DNA of 64,000 nt, taken from contig NZ_CP109137.1 of the NCBI RefSeq assembly GCF_035918095.1, positions 4,838,001-4,902,000 on the forward strand, written 5' to 3'. A program made the position numbers and the translations under genes. Shown one piece after another: positions 1,995-17,705 of the stretch (position 1 is the stretch's first letter; every line of letters starts with the position of its first letter). The notes beneath the pieces are model-generated. The model was not told the origin of the DNA, searched no databases, and was given only the letters and a program-made list of their open reading frames with translations. This DNA comes from Streptomyces sp. NBC_01750. GTDB taxonomy: Bacteria; Actinomycetota; Actinomycetes; Streptomycetales; Streptomycetaceae.

Positions 1995-4900
1995 ATGTCA
2001 CGCCATCCGCGTGCGACGAGCGCCAGACCTGCGCCGCGCACCGCACTCCTGCTCACGCTGCCCGTCTTGTTGTCCGTCCTGCTGTCCACGCTTCTTCCGG
2101 CGGGAGCAGCGTGGGCGCGGGACATCACGCCCACCGCCGCGGACGCCGCCGGAGCCGGCTGCGCCGCGCTGCCGCTCACCTCTTTCGGGGACCCGGCCGG
2201 CGCGGTCGGCAAGGCGACGGTCGCCGGCCACGGCGGCAGCGTCTGCTTCGGCTTCACCGCTGAGAAGGCCGGGCTGCACCGCGTCGTGCTCGGCAAGGTC
2301 CACGCCGAGACCTACTCCCAGGTCTTCGACGGCACCACCCAACTGAACTGCAACCAAACCGATCGGAGCGACGCGGGCTGGTGCGATCTGCCCCGCGCCG
2401 GCGCCTACACCCTGAAGGTGGTCAATCAGGGGTGGCAGAACCTGATCGACACTCCTGTCGCCGTCGTGCCGCTGAACACCGCCGACCACTGTGCCCCGGA
2501 GGCCGGGACGGCGTGGGACACCCCCGTCGTGAAGGGCTCCGCCCCCGGCCCGGTGGCGATCATGTGCCGGCCCTTCACCGGGAAGGCCGGTGAGCGCATC
2601 ACGGTCGACCTCCGCACCGACAAGCCCTCCGGCGACAGCCAGTACTGGATCACCGACGCGTCCGGTGCCCGGATCTGCCCGCGCTCGAACGACGACAACA
2701 GCGAAGGCTGCGTCCTGCCCGGCGACGGCCCCTACCGGGTCCTCGCCCGCATCGGCGACGTGGAGGGCGGCTTCCCCGCCGCGTACACCCTGAAGATCCG
2801 CCGCCTCTCCGACCCGGCCGGCTGCGCGCACGTCCCGCTCAATGCGTACGGCGCGGCGCCCACCACCGTTGATGCGGCCTCCGGCTGCAAGGTCTTCACC
2901 GCACCCGCCGCCGGGCGTTACGACGTGTACGGGGTCCACGACGGGAGCCGCTCCCGGCTGAAGGCGTACGACCAGACGGGCAGGACCGTCTGCGCATCGG
3001 ACGGCATCTGCACCCTGCCCGCCGCGGGTGACTACACCGTACTCACCGACGACGCCACCCTGATCCTCGACCGGTCCGCCGTCACCGGCTGCCGGCCCGT
3101 CGAACTCGGCACCCACCAGGGCACCCTGACCCACAGCGGCGAGGTGGACTGCCTGACCCTGCCGCTGCCCAAGGGCTCCGGTATGGCCGCGCTGAAGAGC
3201 GTGAGCGGCCAGATCCCGCGGATCGACGTCACCGTCGCCGACGCCACCGGCGCCGAGCAGTGCGACGGGACCACCCTCAACTGGGGCACCTGCGGGCTGA
3301 ACGGCACCGCTCCGTTCCGTGTCCTGGTCTCCGCCGCCGACCAGAAAACGCCGACCGGCTCCTACCGCCTCGCGCTGTACCGCACGAGCGCGCCGAACGA
3401 TTGCCAGGTGCTCCCGGCGGGCGACTTCACCTCCGAAAGCGCCCACGCAGGCCTCAGCACAGGTGGCGGGGTCATCTCGCACTGCCTGACCATCCCCGCC
3501 GGCGACCACAGCGCGATGGAGAGCATCCAGCTCCAGGCCGCCCCGGGTACGACGGCCAGGACGTACCTCTCGGTCGTGGACAAGTACAGCAGGCAGGTCT
3601 GCCGGGGCCCCGCTCTGCAGGGCATCCGGCTCACCTGCAACCTCGTGCCGGGCGTCGCGCACACCGTCCTGGTCAACGGAAGCGACACAACCGGCACCTA
3701 CACCCTGACCCGCCGGGACGTCACCTCCACCGCGAAGGGCTGCACCGCCAATCCCGCGACCCCGGTCGGCGGACCGTCCACGGGCGGCACCTTCTCCGGG
3801 GCGAACACGCTGCTCTGCCGCCAGGTCACCACCTCCGACGCCGAGGACACCCTGCACCTCGACGTCCGCGACGCGCACGGCACCGCGAGCCTCGTGGCTT
3901 ACGGCGAGGACGGCAAGCTCGCCTGCAGCACCTACCCCAACAAGGCCTGCGCGGTCACCGGCTCCACCCACTACCAGGTCCTCGTCACCGTACCGACGAG
4001 CCAGAAGGACGACGACCCGTATCACTTCGACGCCCTGCGCATCGCCACCGCCGCCGGGCCGGCCCGGGAGTGCACGGCCGTCCCCAACATCAGCTACGGG
4101 TACGGTCCGATCACCGGCACCCTGGACGAGCAGCACACCGCCGTCTGCGCGGTACTGCCGACCGCTGTCGGCGACCGCTTCGACATGGCGATCAGCGACA
4201 CCACGGGGGCCACCGACGCCGCCGTGCCCGCGCTGTACGACAAGAGCCTCGACAACGGCTGCACGCTGACGGTGCCCACCGGCTACGGATGCTCGGTCGA
4301 CGAACCGGACACCAGGGGCGCCTCCCCCAGCATCATGGTCCTGAGCCTGCCCAAGAAGGCCTCACACACCTCCTACCGGGCGGAACTCATCTGCTCATCC
4401 GTCATCTGCGGCACGCAGCGGGTCAGCGTCGATCGGGTGACCCCGACCACCGCCGAGAGCGGCACGAAGGCCACCGTGCGCGTGACGGGTACGGCTCTGC
4501 ACAAGGACGACAAGGTGGTGCTCAGCCGGGTCGGCGGCAAGGTGGAGTCGACCACTGTGTCGGTGGCGGCCAACCGCAGGACCCTTACGGCCGTGCTGGA
4601 CCTGACCGGGGCTCTCCCGGGCGACTGGAACCTCGGCGTCATCACCCACAACGCGGGGGAGTACGCACTCGGCACCTTCACCGTCACCCCGCCCACGCTG
4701 ACCAACACCGCGGCTCCCGCCATCGGGGGCACGGCCCAGGTCGGCGCCACCCTCACCGCGAACCCGGGCAGTTGGATGCCCACCCCGGTGTCGTACGGCT
4801 ACCAGTGGCAGGCCGACGGCGAGGCGATCTCCGGGGCGACGGCGTCCACGTACACCGTGCCCGCCTCGCTGCTCGGCAAGAAGCTGACCGTCGCCGTCAC

Positions 4901-5510
4901 CGCCCGCCTCCTCGGTGGAGAGACCGCCGTCACCTCGGCGGCCGTCACGGTCGACAAGGGCGCCGCCCCCATGGCGACCACGGCCCCGAAGATCAGCGGC
5001 ACGGCGAAGGTCGGCGTCAAGCTCGGCCTCACGCAGGGCATCTGGACTCCGGCCGTCACGTCGTACGGCTACCAGTGGAAGGCCGACGGCAAGGCGATCC
5101 CCGGGGCGACGGCGTCCACGTACACCGTGCCCGCCTCGCTGCTCGGCAAGAAGGTCACCGTCACCGTCACCGCCCACCGCACGGGCCATACCGACGGCAC
5201 GGCCACGACCGCCGCGGCCACGGTCGCCAAGGGCAGCACCCCGAAGGCCACCAAGGCGCCCACGATCTCGGGCACCGCCAAGGTCGGCCGCACGCTCAAG
5301 GCCGCCCCGGGCACCTGGACGCCCACCCCGTCCTCGTACGCCTACCAGTGGTACGCGGACGGCAGGGCGATCAAGGGCGCCACCGGGTCCTCGCTGAAAC
5401 CGGCCTCCGCCGAGCGGGGAAAGAAGATCACGGTGAAGGTGACCGCCCGCCGCACCGGACACAGCGACGGCACCGCCACCAGCAAGCCGACGGCGAAGGT
5501 CGCTCGCTGA
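1995..5510 (+). CDS. large secreted protein with Cys-containing modules and Ig-like C-terminal repeats
   Basis: About 1171 residues from ATG 1995, which follows a GGGGGGAA ribosome site; an in-frame start further upstream lacks one. Residues 1-41 form a signal peptide (Arg-rich start, long Leu/Val core, cleavage near AWA). The body has several modules of roughly 110 residues, each with a conserved Cys pair and a G-x-Y-x-V/L strand pattern. Three tandem Ig-like units of about 90 residues fill the C-terminus (from about residue 900), with GTAKVG, a W-T-P segment, YQW and a GATAST strand. These repeats are typical of Gram-positive surface and wall-hydrolase proteins. No catalytic domain or sorting signal is seen; an extracellular binding or structural role is inferred. 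Confidence 0.8.
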   Translation: MSRHPRATSARPAPRTALLLTLPVLLSVLLSTLLPAGAAWARDITPTAADAAGAGCAALPLTSFGDPAGAVGKATVAGHGGSVCFGFTAEKAGLHRVVLGKVHAETYSQVFDGTTQLNCNQTDRSDAGWCDLPRAGAYTLKVVNQGWQNLIDTPVAVVPLNTADHCAPEAGTAWDTPVVKGSAPGPVAIMCRPFTGKAGERITVDLRTDKPSGDSQYWITDASGARICPRSNDDNSEGCVLPGDGPYRVLARIGDVEGGFPAAYTLKIRRLSDPAGCAHVPLNAYGAAPTTVDAASGCKVFTAPAAGRYDVYGVHDGSRSRLKAYDQTGRTVCASDGICTLPAAGDYTVLTDDATLILDRSAVTGCRPVELGTHQGTLTHSGEVDCLTLPLPKGSGMAALKSVSGQIPRIDVTVADATGAEQCDGTTLNWGTCGLNGTAPFRVLVSAADQKTPTGSYRLALYRTSAPNDCQVLPAGDFTSESAHAGLSTGGGVISHCLTIPAGDHSAMESIQLQAAPGTTARTYLSVVDKYSRQVCRGPALQGIRLTCNLVPGVAHTVLVNGSDTTGTYTLTRRDVTSTAKGCTANPATPVGGPSTGGTFSGANTLLCRQVTTSDAEDTLHLDVRDAHGTASLVAYGEDGKLACSTYPNKACAVTGSTHYQVLVTVPTSQKDDDPYHFDALRIATAAGPARECTAVPNISYGYGPITGTLDEQHTAVCAVLPTAVGDRFDMAISDTTGATDAAVPALYDKSLDNGCTLTVPTGYGCSVDEPDTRGASPSIMVLSLPKKASHTSYRAELICSSVICGTQRVSVDRVTPTTAESGTKATVRVTGTALHKDDKVVLSRVGGKVESTTVSVAANRRTLTAVLDLTGALPGDWNLGVITHNAGEYALGTFTVTPPTLTNTAAPAIGGTAQVGATLTANPGSWMPTPVSYGYQWQADGEAISGATASTYTVPASLLGKKLTVAVTARLLGGETAVTSAAVTVDKGAAPMATTAPKISGTAKVGVKLGLTQGIWTPAVTSYGYQWKADGKAIPGATASTYTVPASLLGKKVTVTVTAHRTGHTDGTATTAAATVAKGSTPKATKAPTISGTAKVGRTLKAAPGTWTPTPSSYAYQWYADGRAIKGATGSSLKPASAERGKKITVKVTARRTGHSDGTATSKPTAKVAR
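4831..5153 (+). repeat. tandem Ig-like unit with 53-base exact DNA repeat
   Basis: Bases 4831-4883 and 5101-5153 are identical over 53 bases, 270 bases apart, inside successive Ig-like units of the secreted protein. The third unit (to 5510) is clearly diverged. Identity at silent sites suggests recent duplication or gene conversion between units one and two. Confidence 0.85.
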
Positions 5511-5521
5511 GCACGCCTCAC

Positions 5522-5559
5522 GGGGTGGACCCCGCCGGTCATCCGGCGGGGCCCACCCC
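5522..5559 (+). terminator. hairpin terminator after secreted-protein gene
   Basis: A 17-base-pair stem with one mismatch and a four-base loop begins 11 bases after the stop codon and is followed by a short T run. It fits an intrinsic terminator of GC-rich actinobacterial type. Confidence 0.75.
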
Positions 5560-5617
5560 TTTCGCGTGCCGCGGCTTCGCCAACGGTGACGAGCAGTCCC
5601 TCGGTACGGACATGGAA

Positions 5618-5645
5618 GAGGCCCCCGGATGGCTCCGGGGGCCTC
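5618..5645 (-). terminator. hairpin terminator for Yip1 gene
   Basis: A perfect 12-base-pair stem (GAGGCCCCCGGA) with loop TGGC lies 35 bases past the stop of the minus-strand gene. It faces the previous terminator, insulating the convergent pair. Confidence 0.7.
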
Positions 5646-5680
5646 CTCGCGTCCTGCGCAGTCCCAGGTTCTGGGCAGTC

Positions 5681-6568
5681 CTAGATCGTGCCCAGCTTGA
5701 TGATCGACAGCAGGGCGATCAGCTGGATCGCCGACGCGCCCAGCGCCTTTGGCCACGGCAGATCGTGTGACTTGCTCACCATCGACGTGAACAGCGCTCC
5801 CGCAGCCAGCCACGTCGCCCAGCCCAGCCCCTGGACCAGGGAGTTCTCACCGCCCAGGAAGAGGGCGAAGATCAGGCGCGGGGCGTCCGTGATCGACATG
5901 ATCAGCATGGAGAGGCCGACCGTCGGCTGCCAGGCGCCGTCGCCGCCGAGCTGACGGGCCAGGGTGTGGGTCACCGCGCCCAGGATCAGGCCGCCGATGA
6001 CGAATGCGACCGCCGTCGTCAGTACGTACGGAATGGCCGAGGAGATCGTCGCGTTGATCGTCTCCTCGCGGGCCTTGTCGAAGCCGAAGATCGCGAGCAG
6101 TCCGTAGAGGAACGTCACGATCAGCGCGGGGCCCCACACCGGGTAGTCGCGCATCTGCCAGAACGTCGGTCCCGGGCGCAGCACGATGCCGCTCAGCAGC
6201 TGCTTCCAGTGCAGACGCGGGCCGGCCGGGGCGGCGGCGGCCGCGCCCGCGCGGTAGGTCGCGCCGTCGCCGTACGGGTCCTCGTTGACGCTGAACGCCT
6301 GGGTGTGGCCAGGGTTGTTGGCGTACGGGTCACCGTGCGGGGGCTGCTGGTACGGGTCGCCGAAGTACTCCGGTTCGCCGTACGGGCCCTGAGGCCGCTG
6401 CTGTTGGTGACCGCCGCCGGCCTGGGGCCACTGCGGCGGTTGCTGCTGCTGCGCATACGGCGGCGCCGCACGGCCGCCTCCGCCCCGGTAGGGCGGCGGC
6501 GGTGCCTGCTGCGGTTGCTGCTGCGAGGTGCGGTTGTCCCGGCCGCGTCCGATCCTGAATCCAGCCAC
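5681..6568 (-). CDS. Yip1-family integral membrane protein
   Basis: About 295 residues if translation starts at GTG 6568; an upstream in-frame ATG at 6649 would add a Ser/Gly/Pro-rich leader. The first 110 residues are Gln, Pro, Gly and Tyr-rich low complexity, typical of actinobacterial Yip1 proteins. Five hydrophobic helices follow (ALIVTFLYGLLAIFGF, YVLTTAVAFVIGGLILGAV and others). Yip1-like proteins are polytopic; their bacterial role is not established. The gene is monocistronic with its own terminator. No catalytic residues are visible. Confidence 0.8.
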   Translation of the reverse strand: MAGFRIGRGRDNRTSQQQPQQAPPPPYRGGGGRAAPPYAQQQQPPQWPQAGGGHQQQRPQGPYGEPEYFGDPYQQPPHGDPYANNPGHTQAFSVNEDPYGDGATYRAGAAAAAPAGPRLHWKQLLSGIVLRPGPTFWQMRDYPVWGPALIVTFLYGLLAIFGFDKAREETINATISSAIPYVLTTAVAFVIGGLILGAVTHTLARQLGGDGAWQPTVGLSMLIMSITDAPRLIFALFLGGENSLVQGLGWATWLAAGALFTSMVSKSHDLPWPKALGASAIQLIALLSIIKLGTI

Positions 6569-6692
6569 GTATTCGAACGTACCTGGTCCCGGAGAGTGAG
6601 GTACTCCACCCAGGGGAACAAGCGGCCCTTTGCTGCGGAGCTGTGACATCCCCTAGGGGAAAGTCCGGGGGTCTGCCGGAGTGCCCTCAGCC

Positions 6693-6714
6693 GGGCATTC
6701 GATGGGCATTCGAT
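6693..6714. repeat. 11-base tandem direct repeat
   Basis: GGGCATTCGAT occurs twice in tandem in the gap between two minus-strand genes. No function is evident. Confidence 0.8.
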
Positions 6715-6780
6715 GCGCGTACGGCGGGCGTACGCACGGGCGGGTACTGGGCCGGAGTGCGGCAGGCAGGTTGCAGGTGG

Positions 6781-7887
6781 TCAGGGCAGGAAGACCGACG
6801 TACTGAAGGTCACCAGCGCGCGCGTCCGCTCCGCCGCCGGATACAGGGCCACGACGTCCGCGTGCTCACCGCGGTGCGTACGTGTCACCACGTCCGGGCG
6901 CTTGTCGCCGTCGAAGTCCGCATACACGAGGACGTCGGTCGCGGGGCTCGACTCGCCGGACGGAAGCCCGGGCCCGGGCGGGAGCTGTACCGGCTCGGTG
7001 CGGTACGTGCCGCCCGCGCGACCGGGGCCGTCGGGGCTGCCGAGCAGCAGCTTGCCCTTGGCCGCCGCGCCCGGCCCGGGGACGCGGGCCGAGACCACCA
7101 GGTCGTCGTAGCCGTCGTCATTGGTGTCCGCCTCGGGTGCCGGTGCCGAGAGCGCCGGCCCGCCGCCCGGGACAGGCGCCGTGGCGGCGCGCGGCGCGCC
7201 GGCGCGGGTGAAGGGGCCGCGCAGGAAGCTGACGCGGCCCGCCGAGGCGGTGACCGCCAGGTCGGTGCTGCCGTCGCCGTCGAAGTCGCCGCAGACGGGG
7301 TGGTCGGGCCAGTCGTTGCCGTATCTCGCCTCGTCGGGGATGCGGAGGACGGCAGCCTTGCCGCCGAGGCCGGTGGGGGAGCCGAAGAGGAGCTGGAGCG
7401 GTACGGGCGGTCGGCCGATGCCGTTGTACGGCGGGTCCGTGGCGACGATCAGGTCCGCGAAGCCGTCCTTGTCGAGGTCGCAGGAGGCCTCGGCGTCGAA
7501 GGCGGCCGGGAGGGTGCCGTCGACGGGTGCGGCGTTGGCTCGCGGGGTGAGGATCTGGCGGCGGGCGGGGTCCAGGCGGCGCACGGCGGCGGTGCCGTAG
7601 ACGACACCGATGCCCGCGTCGTCGCCGTGGCTGTCGTCGGCGGCCTTCACCAGGTCGTTCAGCACGAGATCGCGATGTCCGTCGCCGTTGAAGTCCTCGG
7701 GGACGCTGCTGCCGGAGCCGCGGGGGACGGGGAGGCGCGGGGTGGCTCCCCGCCCGGCGAGCGGGGCGGTGTCGCCGTTCTTGGCGGCGGGCCGGTCGGG
7801 CCCGGGGCTGCTCGTGCAGCCCGCCAGCAGCAGTGCGCAGAAGCAGGCGGCGCTCATTGCCGCTGCTGCCGCCGTTTGTATCCGCAC
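6781..7887 (-). CDS. FG-GAP repeat lipoprotein
   Basis: A 368-residue exported lipoprotein with GTG start. The signal sequence ends in lipobox LLAGC with Cys24. The mature part contains at least five FG-GAP/integrin-alpha-like calcium-binding loops, for example DFNGDGHRDLV, DLDKDGFADLIV, DFDGDGSTDLAV and DTNDDGYDDLVV, spaced as in a beta-propeller. A surface-anchored, calcium-stabilised propeller is predicted; the ligand is unknown. The gene is monocistronic and transcribed away from the Fe-S gene's terminator. Confidence 0.85.
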   Translation of the reverse strand: MRIQTAAAAAMSAACFCALLLAGCTSSPGPDRPAAKNGDTAPLAGRGATPRLPVPRGSGSSVPEDFNGDGHRDLVLNDLVKAADDSHGDDAGIGVVYGTAAVRRLDPARRQILTPRANAAPVDGTLPAAFDAEASCDLDKDGFADLIVATDPPYNGIGRPPVPLQLLFGSPTGLGGKAAVLRIPDEARYGNDWPDHPVCGDFDGDGSTDLAVTASAGRVSFLRGPFTRAGAPRAATAPVPGGGPALSAPAPEADTNDDGYDDLVVSARVPGPGAAAKGKLLLGSPDGPGRAGGTYRTEPVQLPPGPGLPSGESSPATDVLVYADFDGDKRPDVVTRTHRGEHADVVALYPAAERTRALVTFSTSVFLP

Positions 7888-8244
7888 GACCCACCCCGTC
7901 CGTCTCTTCTGTGCTCAGTCGCCCCACGATGCTCGTTCGGCTGTCGCGGCAGGGCAATGGATCCGTCGTGATCGCAGGCCGATGGTTATACGGTGCGTAG
8001 TGGGGCGGGTGTGGAATGCAGTCCATTGTGGAAAATGAGTGGGTTCACCGGAGCGCGCTCTGCCTGAATGCCAGGGTTGTTGCATTCCCGGTGGATGGTG
8101 CAAACATCCCATCCGTAATGTCATGGACGTCGCCATGGCAAAGAGCGACAGACGCGATAAACCAGACAGCGGATCACCCTGGGAGCACCACACGACGGAC
8201 GACCCGCAGATCCGCCGATCTCCGCCGGGGGAGTGCACACACAG
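7888..8244. other. 357-base intergenic region
   Basis: Between the lipoprotein start and the Fe-S gene terminator there is no convincing gene. It contains an imperfect hairpin GGATGG/CCATCC (8093-8114) with a ten-base loop. A short plus-strand frame with charged composition could start near 8132 but has no supporting homology. Confidence 0.5.
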
Positions 8245-8282
8245 GAGCGGCCGGATCTGCCCCGAGGCAGATCCGGCCGCTC
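8245..8282 (-). terminator. hairpin terminator for etfD
   Basis: A perfect 17-base-pair stem (arm GAGCGGCCGGATCTGCC) with loop CCGA lies 31 bases beyond the stop of the minus-strand Fe-S gene. It is strong and symmetric, so it could act in both directions. Confidence 0.8.
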
Positions 8283-8312
8283 CCGTGTTGCGTACGGACT
8301 ACTTCACCGGCC

Positions 8313-10583
8313 CTACTTCACCGGCTCGGGCTCCGGCGCGTCCTTGGACTCCTCGGAGGCAGCCGGGTCGGCCGGAGGCGTGCGCACCGAGTCGAGCAGC
8401 AGCTGCGCCACGTCCACGACCTGGAGCGATTCCTTCGCCTTGCCTTCGTTCTTCTTGCCGTTCACCGAGTCCGTGAGCATGACCAGGCAGAACGGGCAGG
8501 CGGTGGAGACGATGTCCGGGTTCAGCGAAAGGGCCTCATCAACACGCTCGGTGTTGATGCGCTTGCCGATCCGCTCCTCCATCCACATCCGGGCACCACC
8601 GGCGCCGCAGCAGAAGCCGCGTTCCTTGTGGCGGTGCATCTCCTCGTTCCGCAGGCCCGGCACCTTCGCGATGATCTCGCGCGGCGGCGTGTAGACCTTG
8701 TTGTGACGGCCCAGGTAGCAGGGGTCGTGGTACGTGATCAGACCCTCGACCGGCGTCACCGGAATCAGCTTGCCCTCGTCGATGAGGTGCTGGAGCAGCT
8801 GCGTGTGGTGGATGACCTCGAACTCGCCGCCCAGCTGCGGGTACTCGTTCGCGATCGTGTTGAAGCAGTGCGGGCAGGTCGCGACGATCTTCTTCGACGA
8901 CTTGGGCTTCTTCGTCGAGGGGTCCTCGTCGTCCTCGCCGTACGCCATGTTCAGCATGGCCACGTTCTCCTGGCCGAGCTGCTGGAACAGCGGCTCGTTG
9001 CCCAGGCGCCGGGCCGAGTCACCCGTGCACTTCTCGTCGCCGCCCATGATCGCGAACTTCACGCCCGCGATGTGCAGGAGCTCGGCGAAGGCCTTGGTGG
9101 TCTTCTTCGCCCGGTCCTCCAGGGCGCCCGCGCAGCCGACCCAGTACAGATAGTCGACTTCGGACAGGTCCTCGACGTCCTTGCCGACGATCGGGACCTC
9201 GAAGTCGACCTCCTTGGTCCACTCGACGCGCTGCTTCTTCGCAAGACCCCAGGGGTTGCCCTTCTTCTCCAGGTTCTTGAGCATCGTGCCCGCCTCGGAC
9301 GGGAACGCGGACTCGATCATCACCTGGTAGCGGCGCATGTCGACGATGTGGTCGATGTGCTCGATATCGACCGGGCACTGCTCCACGCACGCACCGCAGG
9401 TGGTGCAGGACCAGAGCACGTCCGGGTCGATGACGCCGTTCTCCTCGAGCGTCCCGATCAGCGGACGCTCGGCCTCGGCGAGGGCCGCCGCCGGCACGTC
9501 CTTGAGTGCCTCGGCCGAAGCCTTCTCCTCGCCCTCCATCGTCTTGCCGCCGCCGGCCAGCAGATACGGGGCCTTGGCGTGCGCGTGATCGCGCAGCGAC
9601 ATGATCAGGAGCTTCGGAGAGAGGGGCTTTCCGGTGTTCCAGGCGGGGCACTGCGACTGGCAGCGGCCGCACTCCGTACACGTGGAGAAGTCGAGGATGC
9701 CCTTCCAGGAGAACTGCTCCACCTGGGATACGCCGAAGACGTCGTCCTCGCCCGGGTCCTCGAAGTCGATCTCCTTGCCGCCGCTCGTCATCGGCAGGAG
9801 CGCGCCGAGCGCGGTCGAGCCGTCGGCGTTCCGCTTGAACCAGATGTTCGGGAAGCCGAGGAAGCGGTGCCAGGCGACACCCATGTTGGTGTTGAGCGAG
9901 ACCGTGATCATCCAGATCAGCGAGGTGCCGATCTTGATCATCGCGGTGAAGTAGATGAGGTTCTGGAGCGCCCCGAGGCTGAGCCCCTTGAAGGCGAGGA
10001 CCAGCGGATACGAGACGAAGTAAGCGGCCTCGTAGCCCTCGACATGGTGGATCGCGCCCTCGAGCCCGCGCAGGGCGAGGATCGCGAGACCGATGGTGAG
10101 GATGACGTACTCGACGAAGTACGCCTGCCAGGCCTTGGAGCCGGCGAAGCGCGACTTGCGGCCCGCCCGCGAGGGCAGGTTCAGCAGCCGGATCGCCATC
10201 AGCACGACGATGCCGACGACCGTCATCAGGCCGATGAACTCGATGTACATCTCGAACGGCAGGAAGCCGCCGATGACCGGCAGCGTCCAGTCCGCCTGGA
10301 AGAGCTGTCCGTATGCCTGCGCCAGCGTCGGCGGCAGGGTGAGGAAGCCGATCGCGACAAACCAGTGGGCGAAGCCCACGATCCCCCACCGGTTCATCCG
10401 GGTGTGGCCGAGGAACTCCTTGACCAGGGTGATCGTGCGCTGCTTGGGATTGTCGGTACGGCTGCCCGCGGGCACGGCCTGGCCGAGCCTGACGAACCGG
10501 TAGATCTGCGCGACGGCTCGGGCGATGAGCGCAACGCCGACCACGGTCAGGACCAGCGACACGATGATCGCGGCGAGTTGCAT
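8313..10583 (-). CDS. etfD: membrane Fe-S oxidoreductase of EtfD type
   Basis: 756 residues. The N-terminal third has about five transmembrane helices. Then come two [4Fe-4S] ferredoxin motifs, CTECGRCQSQCP (residues 302-312) and CTTCGACVEQCP (393-403), and two CCG-type domains with WVGCAGA, CPHCFNT and GFCCGAGG. This is the heterodisulfide-reductase-like arrangement of EtfD (M. tuberculosis Rv0338c), which passes electrons from ETF, reduced by acyl-CoA dehydrogenases, to menaquinone. No etfAB or fad genes are adjacent. The C-terminus is an acidic, Pro-rich tail. A TetR-like palindrome lies in its promoter. Family assignment is firm; physiological role is by analogy. Confidence 0.85.
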   Translation of the reverse strand: MQLAAIIVSLVLTVVGVALIARAVAQIYRFVRLGQAVPAGSRTDNPKQRTITLVKEFLGHTRMNRWGIVGFAHWFVAIGFLTLPPTLAQAYGQLFQADWTLPVIGGFLPFEMYIEFIGLMTVVGIVVLMAIRLLNLPSRAGRKSRFAGSKAWQAYFVEYVILTIGLAILALRGLEGAIHHVEGYEAAYFVSYPLVLAFKGLSLGALQNLIYFTAMIKIGTSLIWMITVSLNTNMGVAWHRFLGFPNIWFKRNADGSTALGALLPMTSGGKEIDFEDPGEDDVFGVSQVEQFSWKGILDFSTCTECGRCQSQCPAWNTGKPLSPKLLIMSLRDHAHAKAPYLLAGGGKTMEGEEKASAEALKDVPAAALAEAERPLIGTLEENGVIDPDVLWSCTTCGACVEQCPVDIEHIDHIVDMRRYQVMIESAFPSEAGTMLKNLEKKGNPWGLAKKQRVEWTKEVDFEVPIVGKDVEDLSEVDYLYWVGCAGALEDRAKKTTKAFAELLHIAGVKFAIMGGDEKCTGDSARRLGNEPLFQQLGQENVAMLNMAYGEDDEDPSTKKPKSSKKIVATCPHCFNTIANEYPQLGGEFEVIHHTQLLQHLIDEGKLIPVTPVEGLITYHDPCYLGRHNKVYTPPREIIAKVPGLRNEEMHRHKERGFCCGAGGARMWMEERIGKRINTERVDEALSLNPDIVSTACPFCLVMLTDSVNGKKNEGKAKESLQVVDVAQLLLDSVRTPPADPAASEESKDAPEPEPVK

Positions 10584-15879: not shown

Positions 15880-16863
15880 TCAGCCCTCGTGCTCCAGAAT
15901 CCCCGACTGCGCGATGAGATAGCCGAGTTGGGTCCGGCTGCCGCTGCCCAGCGCGGAGCCCAGCTTGGCGATATGGGCACGGCAGGTACGGACGTTCATG
16001 CCGAGCCGCCGGGCGATGGCCTCGTCCACATGGCCCTCGACCAGCAGCTTGGCGATCGAGCGCTGGACGCCTGTGATGCCGTCCAGCGGGGGGCCGTAGG
16101 AGACCTGCTCCTCCCACGGGATGCCGTGCAGCCAGAACTGCTCGAAGACGCCGACGAGATACTCGACGATTCCCTTGTGCCGTAGCTCAAGTGCCGAGAG
16201 CCTGTCGCTACTTGCCGGTATGAACGCTACTTTCCGGTCGACAATGATCAGCCGGTCGATGATCTCCTCGAGCGTGCGCACCTCCACGCCGGACGGGCCG
16301 ACCTGCTCCATGTAGGAGAGCGTGGCCGGGTGGTGGCGGGCCGTGTGCTGGTAGAGCGTCCGCATCCGTACGCCGCGGTCGATCAGCGGCTCCACGCGGC
16401 GCAGAGCCTTCTCCAGGATGTGCGGCTGCCGCCCGCTGCCGGGCTGCACCGTGAGGAGCTCCTCCGAACACTCTGCGGTGACCTGGTCAAGGGTTGTGTT
16501 GATGCGGTTGAGACCCTCGAGGACGGTGATCCCCTGTGGGACGGTGGAGTTCTGAGCACTGAACGCCATGAATGGCTCAAGTGCGTCGGTCAGAGCGACA
16601 GTTCGCCGTCGGCGCTCTTGGATCTCCCGCTCGATGGGGTGTATCAGCTGTGTCAGCGCAGTGGTCGGTGGAACCGGACGGAGCCACTGAGCGTCGTCGG
16701 GATCCGGATGCAGCAGGGCGAGATCGAAGAGGCAGGGTGTGGGTTCCGCCTCTGACCGGGCTATTCGCCCGGTCCGCAGAGCGGTGATGTAGAGAACCTT
16801 CCCCGCTTCGCACAGCTCGCCGTCTGCGTGAGGGTGTCCCGTTTCGCCCTCCTTCGATGACAT
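15880..16863 (-). CDS. LuxR-type HTH regulator with a large N-terminal domain
   Basis: 327 residues from ATG 16863, preceded by GAGGGGG. Residues 1-250 form an unassigned Streptomyces-type sensor domain with a charged helix (IEREIQERRRRTVALTDA), an EELLTVQPG strand and a RTLYQHTARH block reminiscent of a TrmB/phospholipase-D-like fold. The last 65 residues are a LuxR/GerE HTH (GVQRSIAKLLVEGHVDEAIARRLGM). There is no receiver domain, so it is an orphan regulator. It diverges from the GEPSWG-repeat peptide gene with 126 bases between starts, suggesting it controls that gene and itself. Confidence 0.85.
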   Translation of the reverse strand: MSSKEGETGHPHADGELCEAGKVLYITALRTGRIARSEAEPTPCLFDLALLHPDPDDAQWLRPVPPTTALTQLIHPIEREIQERRRRTVALTDALEPFMAFSAQNSTVPQGITVLEGLNRINTTLDQVTAECSEELLTVQPGSGRQPHILEKALRRVEPLIDRGVRMRTLYQHTARHHPATLSYMEQVGPSGVEVRTLEEIIDRLIIVDRKVAFIPASSDRLSALELRHKGIVEYLVGVFEQFWLHGIPWEEQVSYGPPLDGITGVQRSIAKLLVEGHVDEAIARRLGMNVRTCRAHIAKLGSALGSGSRTQLGYLIAQSGILEHEG

Positions 16864-16879
16864 ATGCACCCCCTCAGGC

Positions 16880-16894
16880 TCCTGCATTACAGGA
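16880..16894. promoter_or_regulatory. inverted repeat in the LuxR/peptide divergent promoter
   Basis: TCCTG, five bases, CAGGA. It is the only clear dyad between the regulator and the repeat-peptide gene and is a candidate site for the regulator. It lies only about 17 bases upstream of the regulator's start, as expected of autorepression. Confidence 0.4.
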
Positions 16895-16989
16895 ACATGA
16901 TGCCTGCCGTCGCTGGTGCAAGCGTTCGGAGTGAGACATCGTCTTATGCGCGGGGGAGGAGGAATGATCAAAAGAGGTGGAGATCACCC

Positions 16990-17301
16990 ATGTCTAGGAC
17001 GCTTCGTGCTCTTTGTGCTCTTGCCATAGCGGCGGCCGCGCTCGGTGCGGTGGCTTCCGGCGAGCCCTCCTGGGGTAGCTCTCCCGCCGGCGCGGTGACG
17101 GCAGCCCCTGGCGAACCTTCGTGGGGCTTCGCTCCCGCGGACGCTGTGGCAGCAACGCCCGGTGAGCCCTCCTGGGGTGTCGTCGCGGCAGACGCGGTGC
17201 GTACTCCTGGTGAGCCTTCCTGGGGTGTGGCGCCGGCAGATGCCGCGGGTACTCCTGGTGAGCCTTCCTGGGGTGTCGCTCCGGCCCGCACGGACGCATG
17301 A
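16990..17301 (+). CDS. exported multi-repeat peptide precursor (five GEPSWG repeats)
   Basis: 103 residues from ATG 16990 with a GAGGTGGAGA ribosome site. Residues 1-22 are a signal peptide (SRTLR, Ala/Leu core, AVA cleavage site). The rest is five copies of GEPSWG at residues 24, 41, 58, 74 and 90, separated by 10-11-residue Ala/Pro/Asp spacers such as VAPADAVRTP. The hexapeptide is invariant although its codons vary (GAG/GAA, CCC/CCT, TCC/TCG), so selection acts on the peptide. No Cys is present outside the signal. The layout is that of a multi-core secreted precursor or a repetitive wall protein. It is translationally coupled to the next gene. I do not recognise a described family. Confidence 0.8.
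   Translation: MSRTLRALCALAIAAAALGAVASGEPSWGSSPAGAVTAAPGEPSWGFAPADAVAATPGEPSWGVVAADAVRTPGEPSWGVAPADAAGTPGEPSWGVAPARTDA
17059..17274 (+). repeat. five GEPSWG coding repeats
   Basis: Copies start at 17059, 17110, 17161, 17209 and 17257, so periods are 51, 51, 48 and 48 bases. The last two copies are nearly identical at the DNA level; the first three differ by synonymous changes within the hexapeptide. Confidence 0.9.
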
Positions 17302-17618
17302 CCGTTCCACCGGACGACCGGGTCTTCCGGCGTGAAATGGCTACGGCCTACCGATCGGGGTGGCATTTCATCGACCTCGTCACGGCAATCCCCCACCGTG
17401 GCGACTCGTTGATGGTCACCCTCTTCGGAGAGCCGATAGTCGTGGCGCGCGAGGAGGACGAGGACGTCCGCGCGTATCGGTGCCTTCGCAGGCCCCGTGG
17501 AGCTCCACAGCCCGTCCGCTGTGCCATCCGGTACGGCATGATTTTCGTCAATCTCGACCAGCGGGACCACCAGCTGGTCGAGCCCGACACCACCACCGCC
17601 ACCCCCCGCAGTGCCTGA
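17298..17618 (+). CDS. Rieske-like protein lacking histidine ligands
   Basis: 106 residues whose ATG overlaps the peptide gene stop (ATGA). Residues 15-90 follow the N-terminal Rieske domain of ring-hydroxylating oxygenases: GWHFIDLVTAI, then a gepvVVAREEDEDVRAY-like strand, then RGAP and the closing strand MIFVNLD. The Cys-x-His and Cys-x2-His cluster motifs are not intact: Cys62 and Cys75 remain but no His accompanies either, and the segment between them is shortened. A canonical [2Fe-2S] centre is therefore unlikely. Coupling suggests it binds, chaperones or modifies the repeat peptide. The function is unknown; similarity is by pattern only. Confidence 0.7.
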   Translation: MTVPPDDRVFRREMATAYRSGWHFIDLVTAIPHRGDSLMVTLFGEPIVVAREEDEDVRAYRCLRRPRGAPQPVRCAIRYGMIFVNLDQRDHQLVEPDTTTATPRSA

Positions 17619-17660
17619 GCGGTTCCCCCGTCGTTGTAAATCGCTCAGGTGCTTCCCCCA

Positions 17661-17705
17661 CACAGCGGCGCCATCGTGGACCTGAAACACGATGGCGCCG
17701 CTGTG
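17661..17705. terminator. 18-base-pair hairpin closing the peptide cassette
   Basis: A perfect 18-base-pair stem (arm CACAGCGGCGCCATCGTG) with a nine-base loop lies 42 bases after the Rieske-like gene and 61 bases after the convergent gene's stop. It probably terminates both. Confidence 0.85.

Follow-up and report, generated by a model that had tools for sequence, protein, structure and literature searches.

Gene content and organization of the locus

The window analyzed here is a stretch of 64,000 nucleotides from Streptomyces sp. NBC_01750 (contig positions 4838001-4902000). The gene order, as read by eye, is dnaK-grpE-dnaJ-hspR, a LuxR-type gene on the reverse strand, a small precursor gene and a Rieske-like gene on the forward strand, a PPOX-like gene on the reverse strand, and clpB. 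The features of the central part are as follows (window coordinates).

15880-16863, reverse strand: LuxR-type regulator, 327 aa, proposed receptor (profile matches, covariation with the core)
16123-16821, reverse strand: TrmB-like sensor of this regulator, about residues 15-247 (TrmBL2 profile match)
Regulator residues 256-316, reverse strand: LuxR/GerE helix-turn-helix (HTH) (profile match)
16456-16458, reverse strand: sensor specificity residue L136 (covariation with the core)
16393-16395, reverse strand: sensor specificity residue V157 (covariation with the core)
16880-16903, forward strand: operator-like element TCCTG-N5-CAGGAACATGATGC in the divergent intergenic region (conservation in 143 loci)
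16990-17301, forward strand: putative pheromone precursor of 103 aa (five GEPSWG cores after a signal-peptide-like start)
16990-17055, forward strand: putative Sec signal peptide, residues 1-22, ...AVA/SG (hydropathy rule, AxA-like site)
17059-17076, forward strand: core copy 1, GEPSWG
17110-17127, forward strand: core copy 2, GEPSWG
17161-17178, forward strand: core copy 3, GEPSWG
17209-17226, forward strand: core copy 4, GEPSWG
17257-17274, forward strand: core copy 5, GEPSWG
17298-17618, forward strand: degenerate Rieske-fold protein, 106 aa, translationally coupled (ATGA) (weak oxygenase match, alignment A2)

A preliminary description of this DNA proposed an exported peptide with five GEPSWG repeats, and the open reading frame at 16990-17301 has this structure: basic residues and a hydrophobic stretch form a signal-peptide-like N terminus, and the five copies follow. 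The start proposed at that time, an ATG at 16864, is part of a longer in-frame reading frame; in most homologues, the start corresponds to position 16990. Codons differ among the copies as had been noted, with four spellings for five copies (copies 4 and 5 are identical), and the two statements on the neighboring genes also hold, as the LuxR-type gene diverges from the precursor and the start of the Rieske-like gene lies inside the precursor stop codon. No importer or processing protease is encoded in the locus. A GEPSWG-like match elsewhere in the genome is antisense to a long open reading frame and was taken as a chance occurrence.

A profile of the LuxR-type protein that included paralogues (A1, 88 rows) matched the TrmBL2 structures 5bpd, 5box, and 5bqt at residues 15-247 (E value of about 8e-9) and a LuxR HTH at residues 256-316. 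The match to TrmBL2 was weaker with a profile of 34 orthologues only (A3; residues 53-246, E value of 6e-5), and the single window sequence matched HTH chains only, with no match to TrmBL2. By profile comparison, the sensor half therefore corresponds to the effector-binding domain of TrmB, a protein that senses sugar; it differs from TrmB and TrmBL2 in that a LuxR HTH follows the sensor and in that the proposed ligand is a peptide. The window protein fell below the cutoff of the GerE model, which three relatives exceeded. Pfam and NCBIfam gave HTH and TrmB-type matches only, with no LuxR/acyl-homoserine lactone (AHL) autoinducer-binding domain. When the window protein and five relatives were scanned against Pfam, the matches were again to HTH and TrmB-type models, and no tetratricopeptide repeats were found.

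Distribution and sampling of the locus

A protein search with the precursor alone recovered 10 relatives, which were too few, and the Rieske-like gene was thus used as the better anchor. At an E-value limit of 1e-3, a match to the Rieske-like protein was found in 332 of the 392 genomes of the genus (60 had none), and 11 of the matches listed for these 332 genomes were weak (E value above 1e-20). In an order-wide sample, 150 of 197 genomes had a match, the sole one outside the genus at an E value of 7e-4. The pattern of paired GEPSWG copies matched in 6 of the 392 genus genomes; this low number reflects differences in the core between species rather than rarity of the locus.

The first 80 loci taken were the best 80 by identity, a choice biased toward near relatives, and 70 more came from the top of the match list for genus genomes. 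With eight repeats removed, the 142 collected loci and the window make a set of 143, of which 141 are distinct, since L097/L118 and L102/L119 are from the same genomes. All 143 loci share the arrangement of a reverse-strand LuxR-type gene, a forward-strand precursor, and a forward-strand Rieske-like gene, and the LuxR-type gene, the PPOX-like gene, and clpB were present in 80/80 of the best-80 loci. Precursors were detected automatically in 140 of the 143 loci and read from the same frame in the other three. Sensor analyses used 142 of the 143 loci, L120 being left out for a sensor shorter than 300 aa, and the Mantel and parsimony analyses and the clpB part of the independent-pair test used the 79 loci in which clpB was long enough.

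Core peptides are uniform within precursors and polymorphic between genomes

The cores follow the pattern [D/E/N]xxW and comprise 33 modal types in the 143 loci, including EPSW, EPTW, DSTW, DSGW, DIGW, DPGW, and DTRW. Copy number ranges from one (26 precursors) and two (38 precursors) up to 10 (2 precursors). Four loci (L101, L168, L170, and L256) carry about 7 to 10 copies, which suggests rapid change in copy number. The four-letter core is uniform within 108 of the 117 multicopy precursors (106 of 115 distinct proteins), while shuffling of the copies among these 117 precursors in 2,000 trials gave a mean of 3.75 uniform precursors and a maximum of 11. Copies within precursors differ in the core by 0.51 per synonymous site (pS) and 0.014 per nonsynonymous site (pN); related genomes thus keep the repeat with a bias toward synonymous change, the pattern whose absence was to count against the early proposal. 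The search pattern fixes D/E/N and W, which carry no weight in pN, and the values at the two free core positions are 0.013 and 0.053, compared with 0.198 at the residue after W and 0.35 to 0.56 in the flanks. This high synonymous and low nonsynonymous difference among copies indicates that their uniformity does not result from recent duplication. On the sequence evidence, the core is the unit under selection, polymorphic between genomes and uniform inside precursors.

The core covaries with the sensor of the divergent regulator

Core distance correlated with sensor distance in the 79 loci both when clpB was controlled for (partial Mantel r = 0.70, P = 0.0005) and when the HTH, clpB, and the Rieske-like protein were all controlled for (r = 0.68, P = 0.0005); the P value is the floor of 2,000 permutations, and the Mantel test does not fully remove phylogeny. 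Given clpB, the core was weakly correlated with the HTH (r = 0.24) and the Rieske-like protein (r = 0.18), both at a P value of 0.0005, and these coefficients became -0.06 and -0.04, respectively, with the sensor and clpB included. By parsimony, the core changes 22 times on the sensor tree, 31 times on the HTH tree, and 36 times each on the clpB and Rieske-like trees, with a minimum of 17; the HTH and Rieske-like trees are built on few columns, and clpB is long. The Rieske-like gene overlaps the precursor, yet its product does not track the core when the sensor is controlled for, so closeness alone does not explain the match to the sensor. Another account of the linkage is that the sensor and precursor, being neighbors, could have been exchanged together. 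The LuxR-type gene entered the preliminary description as a divergent neighbor, and this covariation now makes its product the likely receptor of the core peptide. The presumed signal varies between lineages and is matched to this receptor at the level of sequence, as in a pherotype.

Two sensor residues, 136 and 157 (window numbering), correspond to core residue 2 with no exception in 142 sensors (127 clusters at 97% identity), the two columns having been chosen post hoc as the best of about 250. Ser at this core position is found with M136 and D157 (53 sensors), Thr with V136 and D157 (22 sensors), Pro with L136 and V, M, A, or L157 (42 sensors), Ile with V136 and G or A157 (15 sensors), Leu with V136 and G157 (5 sensors), and Val with V136 and S157 (5 sensors). 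The code is chemically sensible, with Asp for a hydroxyl group and room for bulky residues. Other core positions are also tracked: Glu at residue 1 occurs with W250 (34/36) and Asp with L250 (94/100), position 74 following residue 1 as well, and Pro at residue 5 occurs with G, S, or A118 and S or N149 (21/21) and Ser with R149 (14/14).

The clpB tree requires 18 changes of core residue 2 and likewise 18 of its joint label with residue 136. Independent pairs on this tree associated Ser/Thr with D157 (8/8, P = 0.008), Ile/Leu with G/A157 (6/6, P = 0.03), and, in a small sample, Pro with L136 (3/3). The association of Glu with W250 was not significant (P = 0.06), as 5 of 8 pairs agreed and 3 did not differ. 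The tree of the Rieske-like protein and HTH gave few supported pairs, one to three per comparison among those listed.

The two-residue rule fits 54 of 56 further loci, and 13 of these have sensors identical to training sensors (the window itself twice). Among the 41 new loci with sensors less than 97% identical to training (38 clusters), the rule was right in 36 clusters and made no call in the remaining two (A136/A157 with Leu), compared with 28 of 38 clusters by copying from the nearest training sensor.

Paralogous regulator-peptide pairs

Of 150 Streptomyces genomes, 145 contain the LuxR family; across the class, a profile search found it in 97 of 197 genomes, which belong to 40 of 90 genera. 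Of 70 LuxR loci scanned, 26 have the Rieske-like gene, and the scan found a repeat precursor in 25 of them; the one missed (L232) has DIGW cores on inspection. A divergent exported [DEN]xxW peptide was found at 12 of the 44 loci without the Rieske-like gene, and a downstream one at one more (13), compared with 0 of 114 window tiles sized like the scanned divergent stretch. No peptide was found in the other 31 of these 44 scanned loci, which amount to 43 distinct ones, as L214 and L225 are the same place; three had short flanks.

Fifteen paralogous pairs, including L196 and L210 from a looser scan and without a clear signal peptide, show D157 in 7/7 receptors with Ser/Thr peptides and in 0/8 others (Fisher P = 1.6e-4); clustering at 60% identity reduces these groups to 7 and 5 clusters, respectively (12 in all). 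The paralogues that obey the D157 rule are at 34 to 49% identity and lie elsewhere in the genomes. The full two-residue rule was right in only 8 of the 15 pairs, the failures being Asn, Leu, and Val peptides that go with different receptor residues. Two paralogous precursors (L212 and L226) repeat DNGWS and have receptors with A136/M157, a possible extension of the code to Asn.

The window genome itself has a second pair far away, in which a LuxR paralogue (39% identity) faces a 52-aa peptide ending in DTGWG. In this region (L189, contig positions 6243500-6250000), local positions 2545-3894 hold the regulator with the exported peptide divergent from it, and a long open reading frame after the peptide (3913-5244) resembles an ATP-grasp protein by eye. 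The class-wide search gave no convincing peptide in 15 loci, 14 of them outside Streptomyces. One locus outside the genus (L294) has a small exported reading frame ending in STIWG that diverges from a LuxR relative and may be a distant version.

A conserved element between the divergent genes

The element TCCTG-N5-CAGGAACATGATGC lies about 100 to 110 bp before the precursor start, within a single 10-bp bin in 129 of the 143 loci, and its best 16-mer averages 0.93 mismatches across the other 142 loci, compared with 7.0 when sequence is shuffled. The 24-bp pattern has one perfect match in the genome and three places with 3 mismatches, a number equal to that of the reversed control. It was not found in the 20 paralogue loci in which it was sought (best, 5 to 7 mismatches). 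Such a near-invariant element at a single site suggests local feedback, in which the regulator may bind the element.

A putative peptide pheromone and its proposed receptor

The best reading of the locus, to which we assign a probability of roughly 0.82, is that it probably encodes a peptide pheromone together with the one-component receptor matched to it. The secreted multicore peptide signal of the preliminary description is thus strongly supported by the sequences, through the synonymous bias among copies and a cognate regulator that covariation allows to be identified. The signal peptide would direct the precursor out of the cell, where trimming would release several copies of a short [D/E]xxWx peptide (EPSWG or GEPSWG in the window genome). 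This peptide would be taken up again, probably through an oligopeptide ABC importer, and bind the divergent LuxR-type protein at its TrmB-like sensor; the regulator may in turn control the shared promoter region, positively or negatively, through the operator-like element and close a feedback loop. As the core differs by lineage and the receptor pocket with it, each lineage would hear mainly its own signal.

The precursor peptide might instead bind the sensor inside the producing cell, before or in place of export, and serve as a local coregulator with no cell-to-cell signal. Covariation shows a matched pair and not where the two meet, and the sensor-containing protein bears no sign of export. 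We regard this as unlikely, however, given that the hydropathy rule for a signal peptide holds in 143/143 precursors, that an AxA-like site directly precedes the first core in 31 of the 143 precursors, compared with 23 of the 316 later cores, and that many short cores with diverged spacers fit the release of many peptides. The protein ends at the last core plus one residue in 34 of the 143 precursors.

The preliminary description also offered an unusual RiPP precursor, in which the Rieske-like protein would modify the core Trp or its neighbors to give an antibiotic or a signal. The multiple cores of the precursor, and the Rieske fold encoded by the gene coupled to it, invite this reading. The fold itself stands insofar as the protein aligns weakly with the N termini of ring-hydroxylating oxygenase alpha subunits (best PDB E value of 2e-4), whose N-terminal Rieske-domain part, as in naphthalene dioxygenase and GbcA, is the part that aligns. 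The locus protein differs from these subunits in lacking both their catalytic domain and their cluster ligands. The Rieske cluster motif is CxH/CxxH, and in alignment A2 (39 sequences) the [2Fe-2S] ligands are not kept: the ligand His is absent by alignment to the oxygenases, and Cys62 and Cys75 are each replaced in one sequence. The C-terminal ATPRSA is invariant in 39/39 sequences although the preceding stretch varies in length. We propose a binding or accessory role for this protein rather than catalysis. No other candidate modifying enzyme was found among the open reading frames between hspR and clpB, the Rieske-like protein does not track the core when the sensor is taken into account, and its gene is missing from paralogous LuxR-peptide pairs; the RiPP reading is therefore highly improbable.

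Least probable of all is a cell-wall or matrix protein with repeats whose core travels with the sensor by linkage alone, as the repeats, the signal peptide, and the adjoining sensor end of the luxR gene could suggest, since many precursors have one core (26/143) or two (38), the Rieske-like protein matches the core no more closely than clpB does although its gene overlaps the precursor stop codon, and the D157 rule holds in distant paralogues elsewhere in the genomes.

Relation to known signaling systems

In the RRNPP systems of Bacillota (Rap-Phr, PlcR-PapR, and NprR), an exported propeptide yields a short linear peptide that is sensed by an intracellular receptor with tetratricopeptide repeats. 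The proposed pheromone system resembles them in a propeptide that adjoins its receptor, a short linear peptide, and signal types matched to receptors. A propeptide predicted by hydropathy to be exported is encoded beside the receptor in 143/143 loci. The Streptomyces system differs in its host, in its TrmB-like sensor with a LuxR HTH, and in cores that often occur in 2 to 10 copies; it would work like RRNPP but is not a member, because no tetratricopeptide repeats were found. The alpha-factor of yeast is likewise made from one exported precursor that contains several identical pheromone copies with spacers; the multicopy precursors are alike, but there is no homology, and the receptor and processing differ.

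Two reviews (PMC10075063 and PMC4748050) describe actinobacterial signals as mostly enzyme-made small molecules, or butyrolactones and cyclic or modified peptides. We found no description of the peptide family or of the precursor-receptor pair in the open-license PMC literature, judged mostly from article listings, and the core motif strings occurred there in seemingly unrelated papers.

A candidate orthologue in S. coelicolor

PMC3282765 describes SCO3665 and SCO3666 as LuxR proteins of 327 and 394 aa, and SCO3664 is absent from its table of S. coelicolor LuxR genes; clpB of this species is SCO3661 (PMC2687793). In one sampled genome (G246), the order is a 394-aa LuxR, a 327-aa LuxR, and a 345-aa LuxR gene, a precursor (DTIWS), the Rieske-like gene, and clpB. 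Within this trio (L137, positions 5209-8373), V136/D157, as expected for DTIWS, occurs only in the 345-aa protein. Because gene order and lengths match G246, SCO3664 should be the orthologue of the 345-aa gene, and it is likely, by gene order and length, the orthologue of the divergent LuxR-type gene. PMC6585502 calls SCO3664 a regulator and reports that an insertion in it raised actinorhodin more than 50-fold, and complementation restored 12 of the 16 mutants tested there, a figure for the whole set and not for SCO3664 itself. This result fits a regulator that restrains antibiotic production, and polar effects or a mapping error may also account for it. The 655-Da factor linked to BldK was considered as a DTIWS-type peptide and rejected, as the calculated masses (620.28, 707.31, and 533.25) do not match.

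It also appears fairly probable from these patterns that Streptomyces, and perhaps other Actinomycetes, harbor a large unnamed class of linear [D/E]xxWx pheromones that act through TrmB-LuxR one-component receptors, that one of these restrains antibiotics in S. coelicolor, and that specificity is predictable from two sensor residues. If true, this would be a gene-encoded, lineage-private language of linear peptides with a readable receptor code, new for Streptomyces by the literature searched. Synthetic pentapeptides would then be cheap probes of silent antibiotic clusters, as the link of SCO3664 to actinorhodin illustrates, and the system would offer a clean model of how signal-receptor specificity evolves.
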